From a virus, in the IMG/VR virus record IMGVR_UViG_3300032156_000046, positions 1-35,214 of that record: DNA of 35,214 nucleotides. One strand, given 5' to 3'. How positions within the stretch are numbered: position 1 is the first letter of the stretch; the number at the start of each line of letters is the position of its first letter. Under the pieces are notes generated by a model. The model was not told the DNA's origin and did not search any database. It worked only from the letters and a program-made list of their open reading frames with translations. The translations under genes were made by a program, and so were the position numbers. Shown here one piece after another: positions 9,152-35,139 of this stretch.

Positions 9152-9352
9152 ATGGCAGAGAAGACGTTCACGTGGTGCGGGGAGTCGACCTGGACGCGGT
9201 CGTTCGGGGCCAAAGCTCCGTCCGCGCTGGAGAAGGGGAAGACCTACCCCATCGAAGGGTTCCCGGCCGAGGTCGTGGCCGAGTGGGTCAAGACCGGGCA
9301 CGCCAAGTATGCGGGCAAGGACAAGCCCGCCAAGGAGGAGTCCAATGGCTAA
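9152..9352 (+). CDS. Small structural-region protein, unknown function
   Basis: A 66-residue protein read from ATG 9152, chosen because a perfect AAGGAGG (9140-9146) lies five bases upstream. Longer in-frame starts exist at GTG 9083 and ATG 9086, the latter overlapping the previous stop as TGATG; they would add 22-23 residues. The core reads GKTYPIEGFPAEVVAEWVKTG, a small-domain pattern also visible in the protein at 22234, which likewise precedes a 124-residue protein. It ends KEESNG with the next start embedded in AATGGCTAA. Function unknown. Confidence 0.65.
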   Translation: MAEKTFTWCGESTWTRSFGAKAPSALEKGKTYPIEGFPAEVVAEWVKTGHAKYAGKDKPAKEESNG

Positions 9353-9719
9353 GTACATGCCCGACGCCATCATCGACCTGATGCTCGACATCATCGGCGC
9401 CGCGACCGAGCTCACCATCTGCTCGTCCCAGCCGACCGACTACACCACGGCGCACACGACCTACATGCTCGCGGCGCACGTCCTGACTGGCGGCGACTTC
9501 TCGAAGGGAAACGGCGACACGTCCGGGCGCAAGCTCATCCTGGCCGCTCAGAACGGGTTCTCCGTCACGAACGGCGGGACCGCGCTGCACTACGCCCTGA
9601 CGATAACCGGCAGCACGACGCTCCTGCTCGTCGGTACCGTGACCAGCCAGGTGCTCAGCGCCGGCAACACCATCAACTTCCCGGCCACGGACGTCGACGA
9701 AATCCGCGACTACGCCTAA
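9345..9719 (+). CDS. 124-residue virion-region protein, paralogue of the protein at 22502
   Basis: Start ATG 9345 overlaps the previous stop and has AAGGAGG at 9331-9337. The protein begins MAKYMPDAIIDLMLDIIG, continues with CSSQPTDYTTAHTTYML and GDTSGRKLI, and ends FPATDVDEIRDYA. The protein at 22502 has the same length and the same landmarks (MAKxxxDxIxD, C-S/D-x-x-PTxYTxAxTTYML, GDTSGRK, N-x-G-T-A-xH, PAxD), so the two are paralogues. The beta-rich body fits a small structural protein that is repeated around virion accessory genes; no enzymatic motif is present. Biochemical role unknown. Confidence 0.75.
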   Translation: MAKYMPDAIIDLMLDIIGAATELTICSSQPTDYTTAHTTYMLAAHVLTGGDFSKGNGDTSGRKLILAAQNGFSVTNGGTALHYALTITGSTTLLLVGTVTSQVLSAGNTINFPATDVDEIRDYA

Positions 9720-22233: not shown

Positions 22234-22509
22234 ATGGCAGACACACCGAGAAAGTTCGAGTGGCTGGCAGCGGACGACAAGGACTCGACGCACCTGGAGC
22301 TCGTTACGGGCGGCACGTACGACTCCTCGGTCGTATCGCACCACCTACTGCGCAAGTGGGAGCAGGAGGGCAAGCTGCGGTTCCTGGAGGACGATGTCAC
22401 GGTCGTCCTGCCGGCGACCGTGGTGCTCCAGGTACAGAACGCGACCATAGGCCTCGCCACCTTGGTCAAGGCCGTGAAAGACGGAATCAAGGAGGAGCGA
22501 AATGGCTAA
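22234..22509 (+). CDS. Small protein near tail tip, unknown function
   Basis: A 91-residue protein with ATG 22234 following TAGGAGACAGT. It contains LELVTGGTYDSSVVSHHLLRKWEQ, read in parts, then GKLRFLEDDVTVVLPATVVLQ, and ends KEERNG where AATGGCTAA carries both its stop and the next start. The TY...v..hLl.kW.q.G pattern resembles the 66-residue protein at 9152, which has the same junction to a 124-residue protein. VQNATIGLATLV near the end looks like the repeat remnants in the tail hub C-terminal linker (VQDATMGLAADSV). No function is known. Confidence 0.65.
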   Translation: MADTPRKFEWLAADDKDSTHLELVTGGTYDSSVVSHHLLRKWEQEGKLRFLEDDVTVVLPATVVLQVQNATIGLATLVKAVKDGIKEERNG

Positions 22510-22876
22510 GTCCGTACACAACGACATCCTCGACGCTGCGCTCAACTACATCAAGAACAACGCCACGCGCATCTGCGTCGACAGCACCGAGCCGACGACC
22601 TACACGCAGGCCGAGACGACCTACATGCTGGTCATCAAGACCATCAGCTCGTCGGATTTCACGGGCCCCGCAGACGGCGACACAAGTGGGAGGAAGGTCA
22701 CATCGAACCAGCACACCGATGTGACGATAACGAACTCCGGTACGGCGGCGCACATCGCCTTCACGGTTGCCGGGTCCAAGCTCCTGTTCGTTACGACCTG
22801 CTCCAACCAGGCGCTGGTCGCTACCAACAAGGTGACCGTCCCGGCCTGGGACATCGAGATAGCAGACCCGGCATGA
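22502..22876 (+). CDS. 124-residue virion-region protein, paralogue of the protein at 9345
   Basis: ATG 22502 overlaps the previous stop, with AAGGAGG at 22490-22496. The protein begins MAKSVHNDILDAALNYIKNN and shares CVDSTEPTTYTQAETTYML, GDTSGRKV, NSGTAAHIAF and VPAWDIEIADPA with the protein at 9345, of equal length. The two copies flank the whole tail module. The C-terminal half is beta-rich. The repeated two-gene arrangement suggests a duplicated cassette; the role, perhaps a structural or fibre-associated protein, is not established. Confidence 0.75.
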   Translation: MAKSVHNDILDAALNYIKNNATRICVDSTEPTTYTQAETTYMLVIKTISSSDFTGPADGDTSGRKVTSNQHTDVTITNSGTAAHIAFTVAGSKLLFVTTCSNQALVATNKVTVPAWDIEIADPA

Positions 22877-23097
22877 GCCCTCACGAAAGACAGGACCCAT
22901 GCCACCTGGCGCCGCGTGAGGCCGAGGCCTTCCGGCTGGTGGGCGAGGGCCTGTCCAACGTTGAGATTTCGGAGCGAATGGGCATCCAGGTCAACACGGT
23001 GAGGACCTACGTGAAGAGTCTGCACGACAAGCTCTTCATCACCGGCCGCGCCCGACTGGCCATCGAGTCACACAAACGCTTTTCTAAGGAGGAATAA
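22873..23097 (+). CDS. LuxR/GerE-type helix-turn-helix protein
   Basis: A 74-residue DNA-binding protein consisting almost entirely of a LuxR C-terminal domain. It shows LAPREAEAFRLVGEGLSNVE, ISERMGIQVNTVRTYVKSLH and a closing helix DKLFITGRARLAIESHKR. The L-t.rE.e.l.Lv.eGlsn.eIa..l.i...TVr.yv..i..KL....R...a pattern is diagnostic of the family. There is no receiver or sensor domain, so activity is not controlled through a fused domain. ATG 22873 overlaps the previous stop. As a regulator at the end of the late operon it could act on late or host promoters; its target is unknown. Confidence 0.88.
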   Translation: MSPHERQDPCHLAPREAEAFRLVGEGLSNVEISERMGIQVNTVRTYVKSLHDKLFITGRARLAIESHKRFSKEE

Positions 23098-27316: not shown

Positions 27317-28696
27317 ATGAACCGCGCCCTGTACGGCTTCCAGCGTGTCGGCGTCGACTTTCTGACGCGTGCCCGCCGAGCCATACTGGGCGACGACATG
27401 GGACTGGGCAAGACCGCCCAGGCCATCACGGCCTGCGCAGACGCGGAGCGCGTCCTCGTAGTGTGCCCTAACACGCTCAAGGGCAACTGGGCGGCAGAGG
27501 TCGGCAAGTGGGCCCCCGGACGGCCAGCGGTGGCAGTGCGGGGGCCCGCACGCAAAAAGGAGGCGACCATCCGGGGGTTCGAGGGCGGGTTCCTGGTGGT
27601 CAACGTCGAGGCGGTCCGTCGCGTGCGGCGGTCAGCCACCGGGGCCCAAGCCCTGCTCGACGTCCTCCTCAGCATGCGGTGGGACGTGCTCATCGTGGAC
27701 GAGGCCCACTGCATCAAGAATCGGAGCTCGCAGCAGACCAAGGGCGTGCTGGAGCTGGCGACCAGGACGCCTCGCGTCTACCTGCTCACCGGCACGCCCA
27801 TCATGAACCGAGTGGACGACCTGTGGGCGCCGCTGCACGTCCTGTACCCGAGGAGGTACGCGTCGTTCTGGTCCTTCGTCAGGCGCCACACCATCGCCTT
27901 CAAGGGCCGGTACGGCTGGGTCATCGACGGAAAACCGACGCGGCCGGCAGAGCTGCGGCTAGAGCTCGCTCCGGTGTTCATGCGCCGCGAAAAAGAGGAA
28001 GTGTTCCCTGACATGCCCCGCAAGGTCTACCAGCAGGTCTGGCTCGACCTCGAGGGCGAACAGCTCCGCATCTACCAGGACATCGAACGGCTGGCCATGG
28101 CCCAGGTCAACGACGACACGACCGTCGTGACGCCCGGCATCCTGGCCCAGCTTACGCGATGCAAGCAGGTGGCCGTGTCGCCCGGGCTCATAGGCGGCCG
28201 GCCGGACGGCGTCAAGCTGGACGCCCTGCTCGACATCGTACACGGCACCGACCAAAAGGTGCTGGTGTTCTCTCAATTCGCCGAGGCCATCAAGCTCGCG
28301 GCCGGGCGGCTGGAGCGGGAGAACATCGGCCACGTCATACTAATCGGAGAAACAAAAGAGGAGGAACGAGATGAAGCAATCGCTAGGTTCCAGACCGCCC
28401 CCGAGGTGCAGGTCTTCCTAGCCACCACGCAAGCCGGAGGGGCCGGCATCACACTGACGGCGGCGTCCTTGGTCGTGTTCCTGGACAAGCACTGGACGCC
28501 GGCCACCAACGAACAGGCCGTTGACCGCACCCGCCCGCACATGCAGACTCGACCGGTCCAGATAGTCGAGCTGCTCGCCCGCGACACCGTCGACGAGATG
28601 GTGGAGGCGGTGCTGGCAGGCAAGGTCGGCATCATCGAGGCAGTCATCAGCAAGAAAAAAGGAGCACTACGACATGCCAGAACTAACGGCGCGTGA
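27317..28696 (+). CDS. SNF2/SWI2-family DEAD-like helicase
   Basis: A 459-residue ATP-dependent DNA translocase. It opens MNRALYGFQRVGVDFLTRAR, the Q-motif-like start of SNF2 enzymes, with Walker A GDDMGLGKT (residues 25-33), LVVCPNTLKGNW (motif Ia), VDEAH (127-131, motif II), LTGTPIMNR (motif III), and C-terminal-lobe motifs VLVFSQFAEAIK (IV), ATTQAGGAGITLT (V) and NEQAVDRTRPHMQT (VI). The size is the compact phage form with both RecA-like lobes and no extra domains. ATG 27317 is chosen because the upstream in-frame extension overlaps the previous gene. It likely assists replication or recombination. The last 23 bases overlap the next gene. Confidence 0.92.
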   Translation: MNRALYGFQRVGVDFLTRARRAILGDDMGLGKTAQAITACADAERVLVVCPNTLKGNWAAEVGKWAPGRPAVAVRGPARKKEATIRGFEGGFLVVNVEAVRRVRRSATGAQALLDVLLSMRWDVLIVDEAHCIKNRSSQQTKGVLELATRTPRVYLLTGTPIMNRVDDLWAPLHVLYPRRYASFWSFVRRHTIAFKGRYGWVIDGKPTRPAELRLELAPVFMRREKEEVFPDMPRKVYQQVWLDLEGEQLRIYQDIERLAMAQVNDDTTVVTPGILAQLTRCKQVAVSPGLIGGRPDGVKLDALLDIVHGTDQKVLVFSQFAEAIKLAAGRLERENIGHVILIGETKEEERDEAIARFQTAPEVQVFLATTQAGGAGITLTAASLVVFLDKHWTPATNEQAVDRTRPHMQTRPVQIVELLARDTVDEMVEAVLAGKVGIIEAVISKKKGALRHARTNGA

Positions 28697-29122: not shown

Positions 29123-30133
29123 ATGGAAAACCGCAACATAAGCTGGTCCGAGATTCAGGCCTGGTGCACATGCCGGCAGCGGTGGGCCTGGGTCTACATC
29201 AGGGGCATTGTACCAAAGAAAACGGAGCGGGCGCCCTCTACGGGCGCCTGCGGCCACGTGGCCGTCGCCGCAGCGCTGCGCGGTGAGGACTGGCGCGAGG
29301 CCGTCGGCATCTGGCTCGACCGTGAAGTCAGGAAGGGGCCGCTGTTCGACGAGGACATCGAGGAGCGAAAGGCCATCGCCGACCTGGTACTGGGCATCAT
29401 GCCGCGCTACCTGGACGCCTACCCCGACACGTTCGAGCCGGTGCTGGTCGAGCATAAGTTCGAAATCCCGATACGAGGCATCGCGGCCAAGCTTATCGGC
29501 TATTGGGACGCCATCGTGCGGGACAAGGACGGCAAGCTCTGGCTCATGGAGCACAAGTTCCCGCAGCGCAGCTTTCGTAGTGAGGAGGACCTGGAGCTGG
29601 ACGGGCAGATTGGCGTTTATCAGTACGCTGCGCACCGGCTGGGCTACCACGTGGTGGGCACCGTCTACAACCAGCTCCTGGCCCGCCTGCCGGCTCTGCC
29701 GGCTGTCAATAAGGACGGTTCGCTGTCCAAGGCCAAGGTCTACACCGACTGGCCTACCTATAAGGGGGCCGTGGTAGCGCACGGCCTGGACCTGACCAAC
29801 TACCTCGACATGGAGAACAAGCTGTCCGACTTCGTGTTCTTCAAGCGCAACCACATCTACCGGCCGCTAGTCGAGGTCCGGCTGTTCACCCGCGACATGG
29901 AGCGCCGGATTTGGGACATGCGCAGCGCCAAAAAGCACATCTACCGCAGCGAGTCGTTCCTCGTCTGCGGTCGGTGCCCGTACCGAGAGCTGTGCTTGGA
30001 GTCGGTGAAAGGAGGAGATGTAGAGTACATCATCGAGAATCAGTTCGAGGCGAAAAAATCTAGAGAGGAGGAAACGAATGGCACTCACCAAGACCCCCAG
30101 GCCGATTGGACCGACACTGAGCCCAGCGCCTGA
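29123..30133 (+). CDS. RecB/Cas4-like PD-(D/E)xK nuclease with probable Fe-S cluster
   Basis: A 336-residue nuclease. The catalytic core shows GYWDAI (Asp129) and LWLMEHKF (Glu143, Lys145), the PD-(D/E)xK triad. Cys15 and Cys17 (AWCTCRQRW) with Cys282, Cys285 and Cys291 (CGRCPYRELC) match the split Fe-S cluster of AddB/Cas4/RecB-type enzymes. The opening SWSEIQAW is typical of phage exonucleases of this group. It is the first gene of a recombination set with a P-loop ATPase and a likely single-strand binding protein. Promoter P2 puts the transcript start just five or so bases upstream, without a ribosome-binding site, so a leaderless start is probable. Confidence 0.85.
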   Translation: MENRNISWSEIQAWCTCRQRWAWVYIRGIVPKKTERAPSTGACGHVAVAAALRGEDWREAVGIWLDREVRKGPLFDEDIEERKAIADLVLGIMPRYLDAYPDTFEPVLVEHKFEIPIRGIAAKLIGYWDAIVRDKDGKLWLMEHKFPQRSFRSEEDLELDGQIGVYQYAAHRLGYHVVGTVYNQLLARLPALPAVNKDGSLSKAKVYTDWPTYKGAVVAHGLDLTNYLDMENKLSDFVFFKRNHIYRPLVEVRLFTRDMERRIWDMRSAKKHIYRSESFLVCGRCPYRELCLESVKGGDVEYIIENQFEAKKSREEETNGTHQDPQADWTDTEPSA

Positions 30134-30962
30134 GGGGGCGACAATGGAGCCCGAGCAGGCAGCGGTGCAAGCACCACCGACCGGCCTGCCGGACATCAGG
30201 ATTTACAAGCCGCACATCGGCAGCTACAAGCTCAAGATGCTCATTTACGGCCCGCCCGGCGTCGGCAAGACGTCGCTGCTGGCCACGGCCAACCTGCATG
30301 AGCTCACGGCGCCGATACTGCTCATCAACGTGGAGGGCGGTATGCTCAGCGTGTCCGACTCGGGCACCCTGGGCCTGAAGACGCCGCCCGACGTCGTCGA
30401 CCTTCAGGGGTTCGACCACCTGGAGAGCATTTTTTGGTACCTGGCCAAAGGCGACCATCCGTACAAGTCGGTCGGCATCGACTCGCTGTCCGAGCTCCAA
30501 ATGGTCAACCTAGAGCACATCGTCAAAAAGCTGGTCGGCAAGACCAGCAGCGCCGGGGCCAAGCGCGAGTCGCTCGACGACGTGTGGCGGGACGACTACG
30601 GTACCAGCACCCAGCAGCTCCGGCGCGTCGTGCGCCAGTTCCGCGACCTGCCCATGCACGTGTTCTTCTCCTGCCACGACGCTACCTCGCAGGACAAGGA
30701 CAAGAACGAGGTGTCGCACCCGGCGCTCACGCCCAAGCTGCGCTCGGCCGTCATGGGCTACATGGACGTCATCGGCTACATGTACGTCGACAGCGCCGAT
30801 GGCGCGAGCCGCCCGGAGGAGCAGGGCGAGAGCTCCAGGCGCCTATTGTGCCGGCCGTTCGGCAAGTGGGTCGCCAAAGACCGCAGCCCGGGCCAACGGC
30901 TAGGCCTCGTCATCGAGGACCCGTCCATCCCGGTCATCATCAACCACGTACTCGGCAAATAA
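30078..30962 (+). CDS. Sak4-like P-loop ATPase / putative recombination ATPase
   Basis: A 294-residue AAA_24-type protein. A flexible N-terminal region precedes KPHIGSYKLKMLIYGPPGVG with Walker A GPPGVGKTS (58-66). Walker B-like SVGIDSLSEL follows (Asp135 after Gly133-Ile134), and a later motif MHVFFSCHDATSQDKDKNE and LRSAVMGYMDVIGYMYVD corresponds to sensor segments of Sak4-type recombinases. ATG 30078 is preferred for its strong GGAGG; it overlaps the nuclease end by 56 bases, and ATG 30144 is possible. The nuclease-ATPase-SSB order fits a single-strand annealing or recombination module. Sak4 activity is inferred, as ATPases of this group vary. Confidence 0.82.
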   Translation: MALTKTPRPIGPTLSPAPEGATMEPEQAAVQAPPTGLPDIRIYKPHIGSYKLKMLIYGPPGVGKTSLLATANLHELTAPILLINVEGGMLSVSDSGTLGLKTPPDVVDLQGFDHLESIFWYLAKGDHPYKSVGIDSLSELQMVNLEHIVKKLVGKTSSAGAKRESLDDVWRDDYGTSTQQLRRVVRQFRDLPMHVFFSCHDATSQDKDKNEVSHPALTPKLRSAVMGYMDVIGYMYVDSADGASRPEEQGESSRRLLCRPFGKWVAKDRSPGQRLGLVIEDPSIPVIINHVLGK

Positions 30963-30972
30963 GGAGGACACC

Positions 30973-31497
30973 ATGCCGAAAAACCCCAACATCCCAATGC
31001 CCAAGGGGGCACCCGCGCCCAGCGCGGACACACCCAAGGCCAACACGCCGGCCGGCCTGCCGCAGAACACGGCCGCCGCTGAGGACGTCTTCGAGGAAGA
31101 CTTCACCGACGTCCAAGGCGGCTTCCCCATGGCCGACGAGGGACTGCACCACGCCAAGGTCATCGACTTCGAGCGGGCCGAGTCGAAGAGCGGCAACCCG
31201 CAGTACGTCTGGCAGTTCCGCATCACGGCCGGCAACAACAAGGACATGGAGCTCCGGTTCTGGACCTCCCTGCTCCCCCAGGCCAGATGGAAAACGGCCG
31301 AGGCCCTGGACGCCATCGGCATCGCGGCAGCCGGCAGCATCGCCAAGTTCCGCAAGAGCGACGTGCTCGGGCGGCCCTGCATCATCGAGGTCGCGCACGA
31401 AACGTACGACAACCGGCTCCAGCACAAGGTCCAGCGCGTGCACCCGCCCAACGAGGACAGCGTCAAGCTGGCCAAGGGCGACACCACCCCGTTCTAG
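30973..31497 (+). CDS. Probable single-strand DNA-binding protein (DUF669-like)
   Basis: A 174-residue protein with GGAGG before ATG 30973. A proline/alanine-rich N-terminal region (about 1-35) is followed by DVFEEDFTDVQGGFPMADEGL and then HAKVIDFERAESKSGNPQYV and WQFRITAGNNKDMELRFWTS, an OB-like series of strands. The C terminus binds KLAKGDTTPF. Proteins with this pattern next to Sak4-like ATPases are often SSB-type or DUF669/DUF2815 proteins. The OB fold is inferred from sequence pattern and neighbourhood. Confidence 0.75.
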   Translation: MPKNPNIPMPKGAPAPSADTPKANTPAGLPQNTAAAEDVFEEDFTDVQGGFPMADEGLHHAKVIDFERAESKSGNPQYVWQFRITAGNNKDMELRFWTSLLPQARWKTAEALDAIGIAAAGSIAKFRKSDVLGRPCIIEVAHETYDNRLQHKVQRVHPPNEDSVKLAKGDTTPF

Positions 31498-31603: not shown

Positions 31604-33373
31604 GTGCTGATACGGAGCAAGGACGAGTACCAGGCCCTGCTGGCCGACCTGCGCAACGGGCCAGCCGTCACCGTGTACGACCTCGAAACGTCCGGGCTCG
31701 ACGCATTCGGCCGCGACTGGCTGATAGGCGTGGCCGTGCTCATTCCGGACATGACCGGCGAGACAGACGGCGACTCCTTTTATGTGCCGTTCAGGCACCG
31801 CGCCGGCTGCAACCTACCAATAGAGGAGCTCTACCGGCTGGCGCCGCTGCTGGCCGACCCCGACCGCACCCTGGTCGGCTTCAATCTCAAGTTCGACGTC
31901 CACTTCACCGAGGCCGAGCGCCTGGTCGTGCACAACCAGCTCGTCGACGTCATGCTCGCGGCCCACCTGGCCAACGAGAACGAGATGTCCTTCGCCCTCA
32001 AGCACCTGGGCTCCAAGTACATCAACGCCAACGCCTCGCAGGCCGAGCGCGACCTGCTGGCCAAGCTCAAGGAGCGCAAGCTCGGCAAGGGCGACATGCA
32101 GCACCTGACGCCGGAGGAGGTCGCGCCGTACGCCGAGCAGGACGTCCGGCTGACCTGGCAGCTGGCCCGGTTCTACACCAAGGAGCTCGAGGCGCAGGGC
32201 ATCGGCCACCTGTGGCCAGACACGAACGAGTACCTGGGGGCCATCGTCGCCATGGAGAGGCGCGGCGTGCTGATAGACCCGGCCGGCTGCGCGGCCAACC
32301 TGAAACAGGCCACCACACGCAAGGCCGAAATCTACGAGCAGATGAAGGCGCTGGTCGGCCATGACTTCAACCCGGACTCCGTGCCGCAGCTCCGCAAGAT
32401 ACTGAAGCAAAAGGCCACCGACAAGAAGGCCCTGGCCGTGTGCAAGCACCCCATCGCGCAGCTGCTCGTCAAGAGCCGGTCGTGGGGAAAGGCGGCCAAC
32501 ACCTTCTACGGCGGGTTCCTTGAGCTCATGGACGAGCACCGCCGCATTCACCCGGACCTGTCGCTTATAGGCACCATCTCGAGCCGGCTGTCCTGCCGGC
32601 ACCCCAACATGCAGGCCCTGCCCAAGGGCAGCGACACACACAGGATTCGTGACCTCATCGTGGCGCCGCCCGGCTACGTGCTCATGAGCTGGGACTGGTC
32701 GCAAATCGAGCTCCGCATCCTGGCGCACTATGCCAAGGACGAGTTCCTGCTGGATGCCTTCAAGAACGAAAAGGACATCCACGGCGAAACGGCCACGCGG
32801 CTCAACCTGCCGAGGGACCTGGCCAAGCGCATCAACTTCGGCGTAGTCTACGGCGTCGGGCCCGACACGCTGGCCGAGGAGCTCGGCATTCCGAGGGCCG
32901 AGGCCAAGGACTACCTCGACCGCTACAACCGACTGATACCGGGCGTGCGCAAGCTCTACAGCACGGCCCAGCGCATCGCCACCCGCGACCGCAGGATTCC
33001 GATGTGGACCGGCCGGCTGCGGCACTACCGGCAGGAGGACGAAACGCACAAGGCCATGTCCAACCTCATCCAGGGCGGCGTGGCCGAGATGATGCGCATA
33101 GCCATCACGCGCCTGCACGGTCTGCTAGTCGGCAGCGACGCACACCAGGTCTTGCAGGTGCACGACGAGGTCCTGTTCGAAATACCGGTCGGCCAAGAGG
33201 CCGAGTGGTCAACGGCCATCAAGCAGGCCATGGAGGACTTCGCGTTTGACGTGCCCGTCGTGGCCGAGGGCAAGATGGGCTACACCTGGGGAAAGGACGC
33301 CATGAAGACGATAACGTTCGATGAGCACGGCGCCCCGGCTGTGCCGGAGCTCGGTGAGCGGGTTACCACTTGA
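31604..33373 (+). CDS. dpoZ: Family A DNA polymerase, Klenow-like, PurZ-linked (DpoZ-type)
   Basis: A 589-residue DNA polymerase. The start is GTG 31604 with AAGGAGG five bases upstream; an open frame continues further left but only as a shadow of other genes. The 3'-5' exonuclease has VYDLETSGLD (Asp26, Glu28), NLKFDVHF (Asp98) and YAEQD (Asp180). The polymerase domain has motif A SWDWSQIELR (Asp364), motif B KRINFGVVYG (Lys408, Phe412, Tyr416) and motif C VHDEV (His520, Asp521, Glu522). No 5' nuclease domain is present. It lies 59 bases before a purZ-like gene. Polymerases in this setting (DpoZ) in Z-genome phages prefer 2-aminoadenine triphosphate over dATP, according to published work; here that preference is inference. 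Confidence 0.92.
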   Translation: MLIRSKDEYQALLADLRNGPAVTVYDLETSGLDAFGRDWLIGVAVLIPDMTGETDGDSFYVPFRHRAGCNLPIEELYRLAPLLADPDRTLVGFNLKFDVHFTEAERLVVHNQLVDVMLAAHLANENEMSFALKHLGSKYINANASQAERDLLAKLKERKLGKGDMQHLTPEEVAPYAEQDVRLTWQLARFYTKELEAQGIGHLWPDTNEYLGAIVAMERRGVLIDPAGCAANLKQATTRKAEIYEQMKALVGHDFNPDSVPQLRKILKQKATDKKALAVCKHPIAQLLVKSRSWGKAANTFYGGFLELMDEHRRIHPDLSLIGTISSRLSCRHPNMQALPKGSDTHRIRDLIVAPPGYVLMSWDWSQIELRILAHYAKDEFLLDAFKNEKDIHGETATRLNLPRDLAKRINFGVVYGVGPDTLAEELGIPRAEAKDYLDRYNRLIPGVRKLYSTAQRIATRDRRIPMWTGRLRHYRQEDETHKAMSNLIQGGVAEMMRIAITRLHGLLVGSDAHQVLQVHDEVLFEIPVGQEAEWSTAIKQAMEDFAFDVPVVAEGKMGYTWGKDAMKTITFDEHGAPAVPELGERVTT

Positions 33374-33399
33374 CAGGGTCTGTCATGGCGTGGTACGAT
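33370..33399 (+). promoter_or_regulatory. Promoter P3 for purZ, overlapping the polymerase stop codon
   Basis: TTGACA (33370-33375), an 18-bp spacer and TACGAT (33394-33399), with extended -10 TG at 33391-33392. The -35 box contains the polymerase stop TGA (33371-33373). The repeat TGACA (33371-33375) GGGTC TGTCA (33381-33385) is the same operator-like element as at 29083. The start should lie near 33406, giving a leader of about 27 bases with AGGAGG before ATG 33433. Confidence 0.82.
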
Positions 33400-33432
33400 A
33401 GCCGGGCATCTCAATTCCAATTAGGAGGACGA

Positions 33433-34515
33433 ATGAAAAACGTCGACTTTGTAGTGGGCGGCCAGTTCGGGGACGAGGGCAAGGGCATGATAGCCAAGCT
33501 GCTCGCCGACCGAGCGACGGCCAACGGGGAGCCCTACCGCTGGACCGGGCGGGTGGGCGCACAGAACGCGGAGCACCGGTTCATTCATCAGGCCTGCGAC
33601 TTCTGCGCCAGGGTCCTGCCGTCAGCCGCATGCTACCGGCCGGACATCGTGGCGGTGCTGGGTGCCGGCCACTGCTTCATTCCGGAGCACCTTATTCGCG
33701 AGGCGACGCACCTTGGCCTGCCGCTCGACCGCGTCGTGGTGGACCCGCACGCCATGTGGCTAAAGCCCGAGCACGCCACCGCGAATCTGGCCATCGGCAA
33801 CGAGCGCGGCACTACCGGCTGGGGCATCGGGGCGGCGGTGGCCGAGAAGGTGCGGCGCCGGCCCGGTACGCAGCTCATAGGCGACTGCGAAACGCTGCGC
33901 CAGGCCCTGGGCCGCAACCTGCGCTCCGTGCCGGAGTACGTCGCGGAGGACGACGGGCCCGGGCTGGTCGAGGGCTCGCAGGGGGCGCTGCTGTCGCTCG
34001 ACCACGGCTATTATCCGTTCTGCACGGCCAAGAACGTCACGGTGCCGGCCATCGCCGGCGAGATGGGGTTCGACCACAAGCGCATCCGGCGCGTCGTGGG
34101 CGTGTTCCGCATGGTACTGATGCGCGTGCCCGGCCCCAGCGGTCCGTCTGCCGGCCGCGAGGTCAGCTTCGACGAAATCGAGCAGCGGACCTCATTGCGC
34201 CTGCCACACCACAGGCGGCTGCAGGGCGACACCTCGCGCTGGCAGGCGTCGCTCAAGCCGGAGCAGGCCGAGGAGGAGCGGCTGTTCGACTTCTCGCTAG
34301 AGGAGCTCCACAAATCGCACCTGCTCAACGGCTACGACTCGCTGGCCCTGACCTTCGCCGACTTCCACAGGCGGGGCAACTACCGGGTCACCACATGGGG
34401 CGGGCTGCACCCGGACACCAGGGCCCTCGTCAACCAAATCGAGAAGACCATCGACGTGCCCGTCGAGCTGGTCCGCACCGGGCCCGGCGAGCACGACAAC
34501 ATCTGGAGGGCGTGA
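33433..34515 (+). CDS. purZ: PurZ-like adenylosuccinate synthetase homologue (2-aminoadenine nucleotide synthesis)
   Basis: A 360-residue homologue of PurA, shorter than the bacterial enzyme (about 430) and near the archaeal and phage type. PurZ joins aspartate to dGMP to form the precursor of 2-aminoadenine nucleotides, while PurA acts on IMP. Seen: GGQFGDEGKG (9-18; Asp14), NAEH (His48 region, NAGH in PurA), GTTGWGIG (126-133), EGSQGALLSLDHGYYPFCT (from 180) and a C-terminal TFAD (307-310) where PurA has TKLD. The substrate-loop region LPHHRRLQGDTSRW differs from PurA RRRxGW. ATG 33433 has TTAGGAGG upstream; an in-frame TTG at 33370 is rejected since it lies within the promoter. Retention of Asp14 and the TxxD Asp may point to a PurZ0- or PurA-like nucleotide and substrate use. 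Confidence 0.82.
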   Translation: MKNVDFVVGGQFGDEGKGMIAKLLADRATANGEPYRWTGRVGAQNAEHRFIHQACDFCARVLPSAACYRPDIVAVLGAGHCFIPEHLIREATHLGLPLDRVVVDPHAMWLKPEHATANLAIGNERGTTGWGIGAAVAEKVRRRPGTQLIGDCETLRQALGRNLRSVPEYVAEDDGPGLVEGSQGALLSLDHGYYPFCTAKNVTVPAIAGEMGFDHKRIRRVVGVFRMVLMRVPGPSGPSAGREVSFDEIEQRTSLRLPHHRRLQGDTSRWQASLKPEQAEEERLFDFSLEELHKSHLLNGYDSLALTFADFHRRGNYRVTTWGGLHPDTRALVNQIEKTIDVPVELVRTGPGEHDNIWRA

Positions 34516-34796
34516 TGGGTCAGCCACTAGAGAGGGCCGTTACCGAGCCGTCCGAAACGGAAAAACTCAAGGCCAAGATAGAGCAGCTCAAGCAGGACCT
34601 CGGACACAACCGCAGCGACGGCTACACGGTGGTGGCCGTGCGCGGGGCCATTGACAGTATGATAGCCGAGGCCGAGAAGGGCGGGCCGTTCCTGCCCGGC
34701 GCCGAGCCGCCAGAGCTCGGTGTGTTGCGGCATCTGCGGCAGATAGCCTACAAGGACCACGCGTCCGACATGTTCGAGAAGCCGGAGAAGAAATGA
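34515..34796 (+). CDS. Small protein, unknown function
   Basis: A 93-residue protein starting at ATG 34515 with TGATG overlap to the purZ stop. The N-terminal part is a charged coiled coil (SETEKLKAKIEQLKQDLGHN), then VVAVRGAIDSMIAEAEKGGP and a C-terminal helix LGVLRHLRQIAYKDHASD. It is translationally coupled to purZ, so it may serve the same pathway, but no motif links it to nucleotide metabolism. Confidence 0.62.
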   Translation: MGQPLERAVTEPSETEKLKAKIEQLKQDLGHNRSDGYTVVAVRGAIDSMIAEAEKGGPFLPGAEPPELGVLRHLRQIAYKDHASDMFEKPEKK

Positions 34797-34951
34797 AGGC
34801 CTGGGCGGCGAGGGCAAAGGACATCATGAAGTTCTCCCTTCTGGTCCTCCTCGCCGCCCTCGCCTTGATGGCGTGGGCCATCTACACCGACGAGCACGCC
34901 TCGAGGAACGTGTCCGAGTGGGCGGCCGTCGTGGAGGGGGGCAAACCATGA
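34793..34951 (+). CDS. 52-residue single-pass membrane protein
   Basis: A short gene from ATG 34793 (ATGA overlap with the preceding stop) to TGA 34949. It encodes a basic N terminus (MKAWAARAKDIM), one hydrophobic segment (KFSLLVLLAALALMAWAIY, residues 13-31) and a polar acidic C-terminal tail. By charge, the N terminus is probably cytoplasmic. The next gene also encodes a membrane protein and overlaps this stop. A lysis role, for example holin-like, is possible but no lysin is seen nearby. Confidence 0.6.
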   Translation: MKAWAARAKDIMKFSLLVLLAALALMAWAIYTDEHASRNVSEWAAVVEGGKP

Positions 34952-35139
34952 ACGAGGGATGGGCAGCACTGACACTGCTGCAAAAGGTCGTGGTAGTGGC
35001 GCTGGGCTGGTTCGCGCTGGCCCTGGTGGTGCTGTCGCTGTGGTGGCTGCTGGTCGGGCAGCACAGGGACGACGACGACGAGCTCCGCGAGGCAGTGCGC
35101 CGCAAGGTGCGCGACGACGAGCGGGGCGGGAACAGCTAA
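34948..35139 (+). CDS. 63-residue membrane protein
   Basis: The start ATG 34948 overlaps the previous stop (ATGA). The protein has one long hydrophobic stretch (KVVVVALGWFALALVVLSLW continuing WLLVG, about residues 13-37) followed by a highly charged tail (QHRDDDDELREAVRRKVRDD). With the previous gene it forms a pair of small membrane proteins. A holin, spanin-related or envelope-modifying role is conceivable, with no specific evidence. Confidence 0.6.
   Translation: MNEGWAALTLLQKVVVVALGWFALALVVLSLWWLLVGQHRDDDDELREAVRRKVRDDERGGNS

Follow-up and report, generated by a model that had tools for sequence, protein, structure and literature searches.

A 35,214-base stretch of viral DNA, hereafter the window, encodes a PurA/PurZ-superfamily protein (P0001) whose clade is placed by phylogeny as a third phage lineage grouped with PurZ and PurZ0, and not with cellular PurA. 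To our knowledge, PurZ and PurZ0 are the only known phage enzymes that commit a purine deoxynucleotide to the replacement of A. We consider it probable, if far from assured, that the clade is a third class of phage PurZ-type purine deoxynucleotide ligase acting in a base-replacement pathway. What was observed in support of this reading is the fold and the lineage of the protein, its altered residues, a linked family A DNA polymerase (PolA), and, in relatives, accessory genes.

The window is a whole IMG/VR record of class linear, probably a fragment, and it ends 0.7 kb past the pur gene. Genes for terminase, portal, protease, and major capsid protein lie in its left part and the replication block in its right part, in the order SNF2 helicase, PD-(D/E)XK nuclease, AAA_24 ATPase, DUF669 protein, and then PolA and pur (Table 1). 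The original prediction described a Klenow-like PolA, lacking the 5' nuclease domain, 59 bases before a PurA/PurZ homologue; both the coordinates and the gap were confirmed, and Pfam agrees. The P0002 reading frame (589 aa) starts with a GTG preceded by GGAAGGAGG, and that of P0001 (360 aa) with an ATG preceded by AGGAGG. No near-identity match to the window was found among phage records. The structural region contains two similar small proteins, apparent paralogues (9309-9719 and 22502-22876), that have TTYML...GDTSGRK and related stretches in common, and a small LuxR/GerE-type helix-turn-helix protein is located among the structural genes (22873-23097). Two short membrane-protein-like ORFs directly follow pur (34793-35139).

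Table 1. Features of the replication block and of the pur gene in the window; residue numbers marked E. coli refer to E. coli PurA.
Feature	Position	Strand	Basis
SNF2-type helicase, conserved replication block	27317..28696	+	
PD-(D/E)XK (RecB/Cas4-like) nuclease, conserved replication block	29123..30133	+	
AAA_24 ATPase (Sak4/RecA-like), conserved replication block	30078..30962	+	
DUF669 protein (probable ssDNA-binding), conserved replication block	30973..31497	+	Pfam scan, neighbourhood comparison
P0002, family A DNA polymerase, 3'-5' exonuclease and polymerase domains, no 5' nuclease	31604..33373	+	Pfam; catalytic residues; own clade
Intergenic stretch, 59 bases, contains pur ribosome-binding site AGGAGG	33374..33432	+	Sequence
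P0001, predicted PurA/PurZ-superfamily ligase of the third phage lineage	33433..34515	+	Domain hits, tree, residues, predicted model
Phosphate loop GGQFGDEGKG with a retained Asp14 (E. coli D13) that is Ser in PurZ/PurZ0	33457..33486	+	Alignments
NAEHR motif (NAGHT in PurA and PurZ); Glu47, Arg49 = E. coli G40E, T42R	33565..33579	+	18/18 clade
RVPGPSGP: Val232 (E. coli V273) and PurZ/PurZ0-type insertion beside ribose 2' position	34123..34146	+	Alignments; role PMC8342488
Aspartate-loop region, remodelled, with Glu282 (E. coli R305E) and a retained Arg283	34222..34284	+	Alignment, residues, model
TFAD: Phe308 (PurA Lys331), Asp310 (D333); phosphate-donor base site	34351..34362	+	Residue comparison

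P0001 matched Pfam Adenylsucc_synt (6.2e-31) and PHROG 1211, but it fell under all curated NCBIfam cut-offs, for PurA as well as PurZ. Clade members were sought in 2.9 million viral contigs and in bacterial and archaeal genomes. The clade analysed comprises 18 sequences (the window, L003, L005, L028-L039, and L105-L107), with L004 as a partial member; its members are 33-88% identical to P0001. The patterns of the initial scan included GDEGK or NAE. An ascertainment artefact was considered and rejected: patterns from the C-terminal half gave the same contigs, and members caught by one pattern have the other too. In a search of P0001 and its homologues from L035 and L039 against 50,697 phage records, no isolate with a clade member was found, and the matches listed contained only PurZ/PurZ0-type relatives (about 25-31%). 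A literature search, Tong 2023 and the 2021 Science papers aside, found no described third class of such enzyme. L105, L106, and L107 are contigs filed under bacterial MAGs in which the new pur gene is present; they probably represent DNA of phages or prophages that was binned together with that of the host. The pur gene adjoins a window-type PolA in L105, and NDT, PrimPol, and RNR genes in L106.

We used IQ-TREE with the LG+C20 model to place the clade in a phylogeny of 70 proteins, calculated without the archaeal Ser/Gly PurZ sequences. The clade was monophyletic (100/99) and joined PurZ plus PurZ0 (100/98). When long branches were removed, the clade, PurZ, and PurZ0 still grouped together (100/99.6), and a grouping of the clade with archaeal PurA was rejected (AU test, p = 0.0013). 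P0001 does not fall within cellular PurA, in agreement with the original prediction. In the best tree the clade lies outside both PurZ and PurZ0, which together are its sister (98/92); neither the tree grouping it with PurZ (AU p = 0.18) nor the tree grouping it with PurZ0 (AU p = 0.064) was rejected.

Residues were compared, in E. coli numbering, between the 18 clade members and 52 PurA, PurZ, or PurZ0 proteins. The P-loop, Lys16, Asn38, His41, Thr129, Arg143, Gln224, Val273, and Asp333 are retained in nearly all clade members; Asp333 is also found in PurA and PurZ0 and is replaced by Asn or Gln in PurZ. Three charge changes (G40E, T42R, and R305E) are present in 18/18 clade members and in 0/52 of the comparison proteins, all 52 of which have Gly40 and Arg305. 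Arg303 is lost in the clade. In 16/18 members Ser414 is replaced by Arg, and in 16/18 Lys331 is replaced by Phe, as in PurZ. Position 13 is Asp in the 17/17 clade members that cover it and Ser in 11/11 PurZ/PurZ0 references; Ser13 was found in 100% of 147 phage PurZ/PurZ0 sequences (PMC12884076).

The clade contains an RVPGxSGP insertion after Val241/V273 that resembles PurZ/PurZ0; the corresponding PurA sequence is RVGxGP. In PurZ/PurZ0, this insertion presses a conserved Val onto the ribose 2' position, and the Val excludes a 2'-OH (PMC8342488). Because the insertion matches that of PurZ/PurZ0, the alignment suggests that the substrate of P0001 would be a deoxynucleotide. The aspartate-loop region of the clade reads QTDSGxxER or RLQGDST..EER, without the TTGRxRR of PurA or the TTVTxxRR of PurZ (T(T/A)VT..(R)R in PurZ/PurZ0). 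Arg305 binds aspartate in PurA, and Arg303 has the same role there. The latter contact is described in PMC8342488. With the aspartate-binding Arg loop lost, P0001 may not use L-aspartate as its amine, unless the new Arg residues have assumed that function.

The AlphaFold model of P0001 (pLDDT 90, pTM 0.90) is weak only at loop 267-276 (pLDDT < 50) and in a few short stretches. Its best structural matches were ligated archaeal PurA 5k7x (Z 42.3), PurZ 6fm1 (39.3), and PurZ0 7vf6 (38.7). The motifs of both enzymes had been described as intact; this holds for the generic PurA and PolA catalytic residues, while the PurZ and DpoZ hallmarks are absent. The identification of the gene as PurZ was not sustained, given the Asp in place of Ser13, the missing aspartate loop, and a score of 119 bits against the NCBIfam PurZ model NF038379 (cut-off 300); the gene is not PurZ0 either.

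P0002 matched DNA_pol_A (8.5e-71) and DNA_pol_A_exo1 (1e-12) in Pfam, with the 5' nuclease domain absent, and every exonuclease and polymerase catalytic residue checked was intact. It belongs to a clade of 11 sequences (100/99) that lies outside DpoZ-1 and DpoZ-2. The change of the helix-O Tyr to Phe is the sole change common to both DpoZ clades (PMC8599892); P0002 and 10/11 of its clade have the Tyr (Tyr766), a marker that is imperfect, as the DpoZ references Spocter and OH have Tyr and Ser, respectively. P0002 has no helix-O insertion, and its scores against the two NCBIfam DpoZ models were 196 and 67 bits, below the cut-offs of 500 and 350. With its position in the tree, the retained Tyr, and these scores, P0002 is not the DpoZ that had been proposed. 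The PolA sequences of L038 and L039 are of a different type, sister to DpoZ-1 (95/85), and have the Tyr too. The original prediction also listed S-2L among phages with a linked PolA-type DpoZ, which is wrong: PrimPol is the sole S-2L polymerase (PMC8065100).

Fifteen clade loci have 2 kb of sequence ahead of pur, and in 11 of these a P0002-type PolA ends at most about 1.1 kb upstream of the gene. In two further loci, L038 and L039, a more distant PolA is located no more than 5 kb from pur, and no PolA of the window type was found near pur in L031 and L032. Among 40 control viral contigs with ordinary PurA, only two contained any family A polymerase. The adjacency of pur and PolA persists across members that are merely about 35-40% identical. 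The pairing is not a product of chance.

In Z-phages, genes of the DmtZ, DutZ, and DUF5664 types destroy dATP or dAMP, and the presence of such genes in remoter relatives of the window therefore fits A replacement and not adenine supply. NDT-family genes were found in 7/15 clade records versus 3/40 controls (Fisher p 0.002); those of the clade are mostly within 2 kb of pur, whereas none was near in the controls. The DmtZ residues Y6, D12, P57, N77, and E103 are all kept in five of them (L033, L035, L036, L038, and L106); Asp12 is important for DmtZ activity (PMC12884076). The L038 contig combines the new-class pur, the PolA sister to DpoZ-1, and an NDT-dUTPase fusion (L038:11633-12613), whose best full-length phage matches are DmtZ-DutZ fusions from Arthrobacter and Streptomyces PurZ0 phages. 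dUTPases are present in L032 and L039, with a weak match directly upstream of pur in L031, and DUF5664 occurs in two records (L036 and L037) versus 1/40 controls. Searches of the clade records for MazG and adenylosuccinate lyase gave no hits. In the window and its nearest relatives, G001 (L003) and G002 (L005), no DmtZ, DutZ, DUF5664, or MazG gene was found, the window being a fragment, and Pfam scans recognised no nucleotide-pool enzymes among the neighbours of pur in the window and L003. For the window itself, the argument is therefore one of descent and of linkage to PolA.

Other genes were observed near pur. In L033 (8458-9018), L035, and L105, pur is adjoined by a gene for an MT-A70 adenine-N6 methyltransferase, which in L033 and L105 separates it from PolA; such a gene would be odd in a genome without adenine. 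Three tandem DNA methyltransferase-like genes, recognised by eye from their motifs, are found downstream of pur in L034 (14710-17654). In Bacillus phage vB_BpsS-140 (L011), whose PurZ is of the Ser type, an NDT protein that has the DmtZ residues is encoded on the minus strand (534-1019).

As a PurZ-type ligase, P0001 would take the gamma phosphate from a nucleoside triphosphate, probably of guanine type, to activate O6 of its deoxynucleotide substrate (dGMP or dIMP), and would place an amine on C6. The product would be a replacement for dATP, supplied to the neighbouring replicative PolA, which may incorporate it selectively; in relatives, DutZ/DUF5664-like and DmtZ-like enzymes would clear unwanted dATP and dAMP. 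Against this reading stand the accessory genes not found in the window and its nearest relatives, the PurA-like Asp13, a PolA without the DpoZ Phe, and the two loci (L031 and L032) without such a PolA. The amine may be L-aspartate, in which case host PurB would complete 2-aminoadenine, or another compound that would give a new N6-substituted purine; we regard the two as about equally probable. It is possible that P0001 joins L-aspartate to dGMP as PurZ does, with a rearranged aspartate site, in a true 2-aminoadenine pathway with a ZTGC genome, which would be the original prediction with altered active-site residues. The union of the clade with PurZ plus PurZ0 argues for this, as do the DmtZ, DutZ, and DUF5664 genes of relatives, the first two of which have been assigned to Z metabolism (PMC12884076), and the new Arg residues at E. 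coli positions 42 and 414 could stand in for those lost. However, the Ser13 invariant in phage PurZ/PurZ0 (100%; PMC12884076) is Asp here, and both aspartate-binding residues, Arg303 and Arg305, are gone, with Glu at 305 in 18/18. These same replacements, a carboxylate-binding Arg pair lost and Arg305 inverted to Glu, together with the newly fixed Glu40, Arg42, and Arg414 (16/18), point tentatively to an amine other than L-aspartate on dGMP or dIMP, so that a purine so far unreported in DNA would take the place of A and be copied by an independently recruited PolA. The clade records contain no adenylosuccinate lyase gene, though host PurB could serve. On the other side, a gene dedicated to making an amine was not recognised next to pur, the new Arg residues could bind aspartate, and the model, in which the loop is disordered, says little about the shape it would take in the ligated enzyme. 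The complete replacement of A by Z that the original prediction proposed is possible, with a different purine as a serious alternative; the evidence does not support the names PurZ or DpoZ, nor the statement that the DNA is Z-DNA.

An ordinary phage PurA that boosts adenine supply by making AMP or dAMP from (d)IMP, in an A-containing genome whose PolA is an ordinary replicase linked to pur only through a conserved block, appears unlikely. Plain PurA is common among phages, Asp13 and Asp333 are PurA-like, and the PolA lacks DpoZ hallmarks; yet the tree rejects this placement (AU p 0.0013), the aspartate loop and the NAGHT motif are lost, PolA is rare in plain-PurA phage contigs (2/40), and genes that destroy dAMP or dATP beside pur in relatives do not agree with adenine supply. 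We give still less credence to a P0001 that is no longer a ligase and has another role, for example in nucleotide sensing or as a phosphatase. The charge changes would then record the loss of the amine site, as the aspartate-site residues are gone while the phosphate-binding site is kept; however, the substrate-pocket residues are conserved across members about 35-40% identical, and the gene is linked to PolA and DmtZ-like genes.

Should a third lineage of this kind hold, with inverted active-site charges, a polymerase of its own, and, in some members, the same helpers for cleaning the pool, the trait would have been remodelled again. The clade could also be used to test directly whether natural DNA contains purines besides 2-aminoadenine, and it supplies new enzymes for the synthesis of modified nucleotides.

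Among known systems, P0001 resembles PurZ (the succino-amino-deoxyadenylate synthase of phiVC8 and S-2L) in fold (Z 39.3 and 38.0), position in the tree, the RVxGxSGP-type insertion, and Phe at 331. It is about 30% identical to PurZ and differs from it in Asp13 (Ser in PurZ), the missing TTVTxxRR, Glu40, Arg42, Glu305, and Asp333 (Asn/Gln in PurZ). With PurZ0 of Wayne/Ghobes-type actinophages, the clade has in common its place in the tree, Asp333, the insertion, and the DmtZ/DutZ-type neighbours of pur in two contigs, L038 and L039, which carry the PolA sister to DpoZ-1. Unlike PurZ0, the clade has Asp13, NAEHR, and a lost aspartate loop, and no dutZ was found in most of its records, whereas all 98 PurZ0 phages have dutZ (PMC12884076). 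The short archaeal PurA of P. horikoshii (5k7x) is the top structural match (Z 42.3), with Asp13 and a similar length; P0001, in contrast, is without the TVTGRxRR loop, NAGHT, and Lys331, and a sister grouping was rejected by the AU test. P0002 is unlike DpoZ-1 and DpoZ-2 in forming a separate clade, retaining Tyr766, scoring below the NCBIfam cut-offs, and having no helix-O insertion; like them, it is a family A polymerase with proofreading that adjoins a pur gene.
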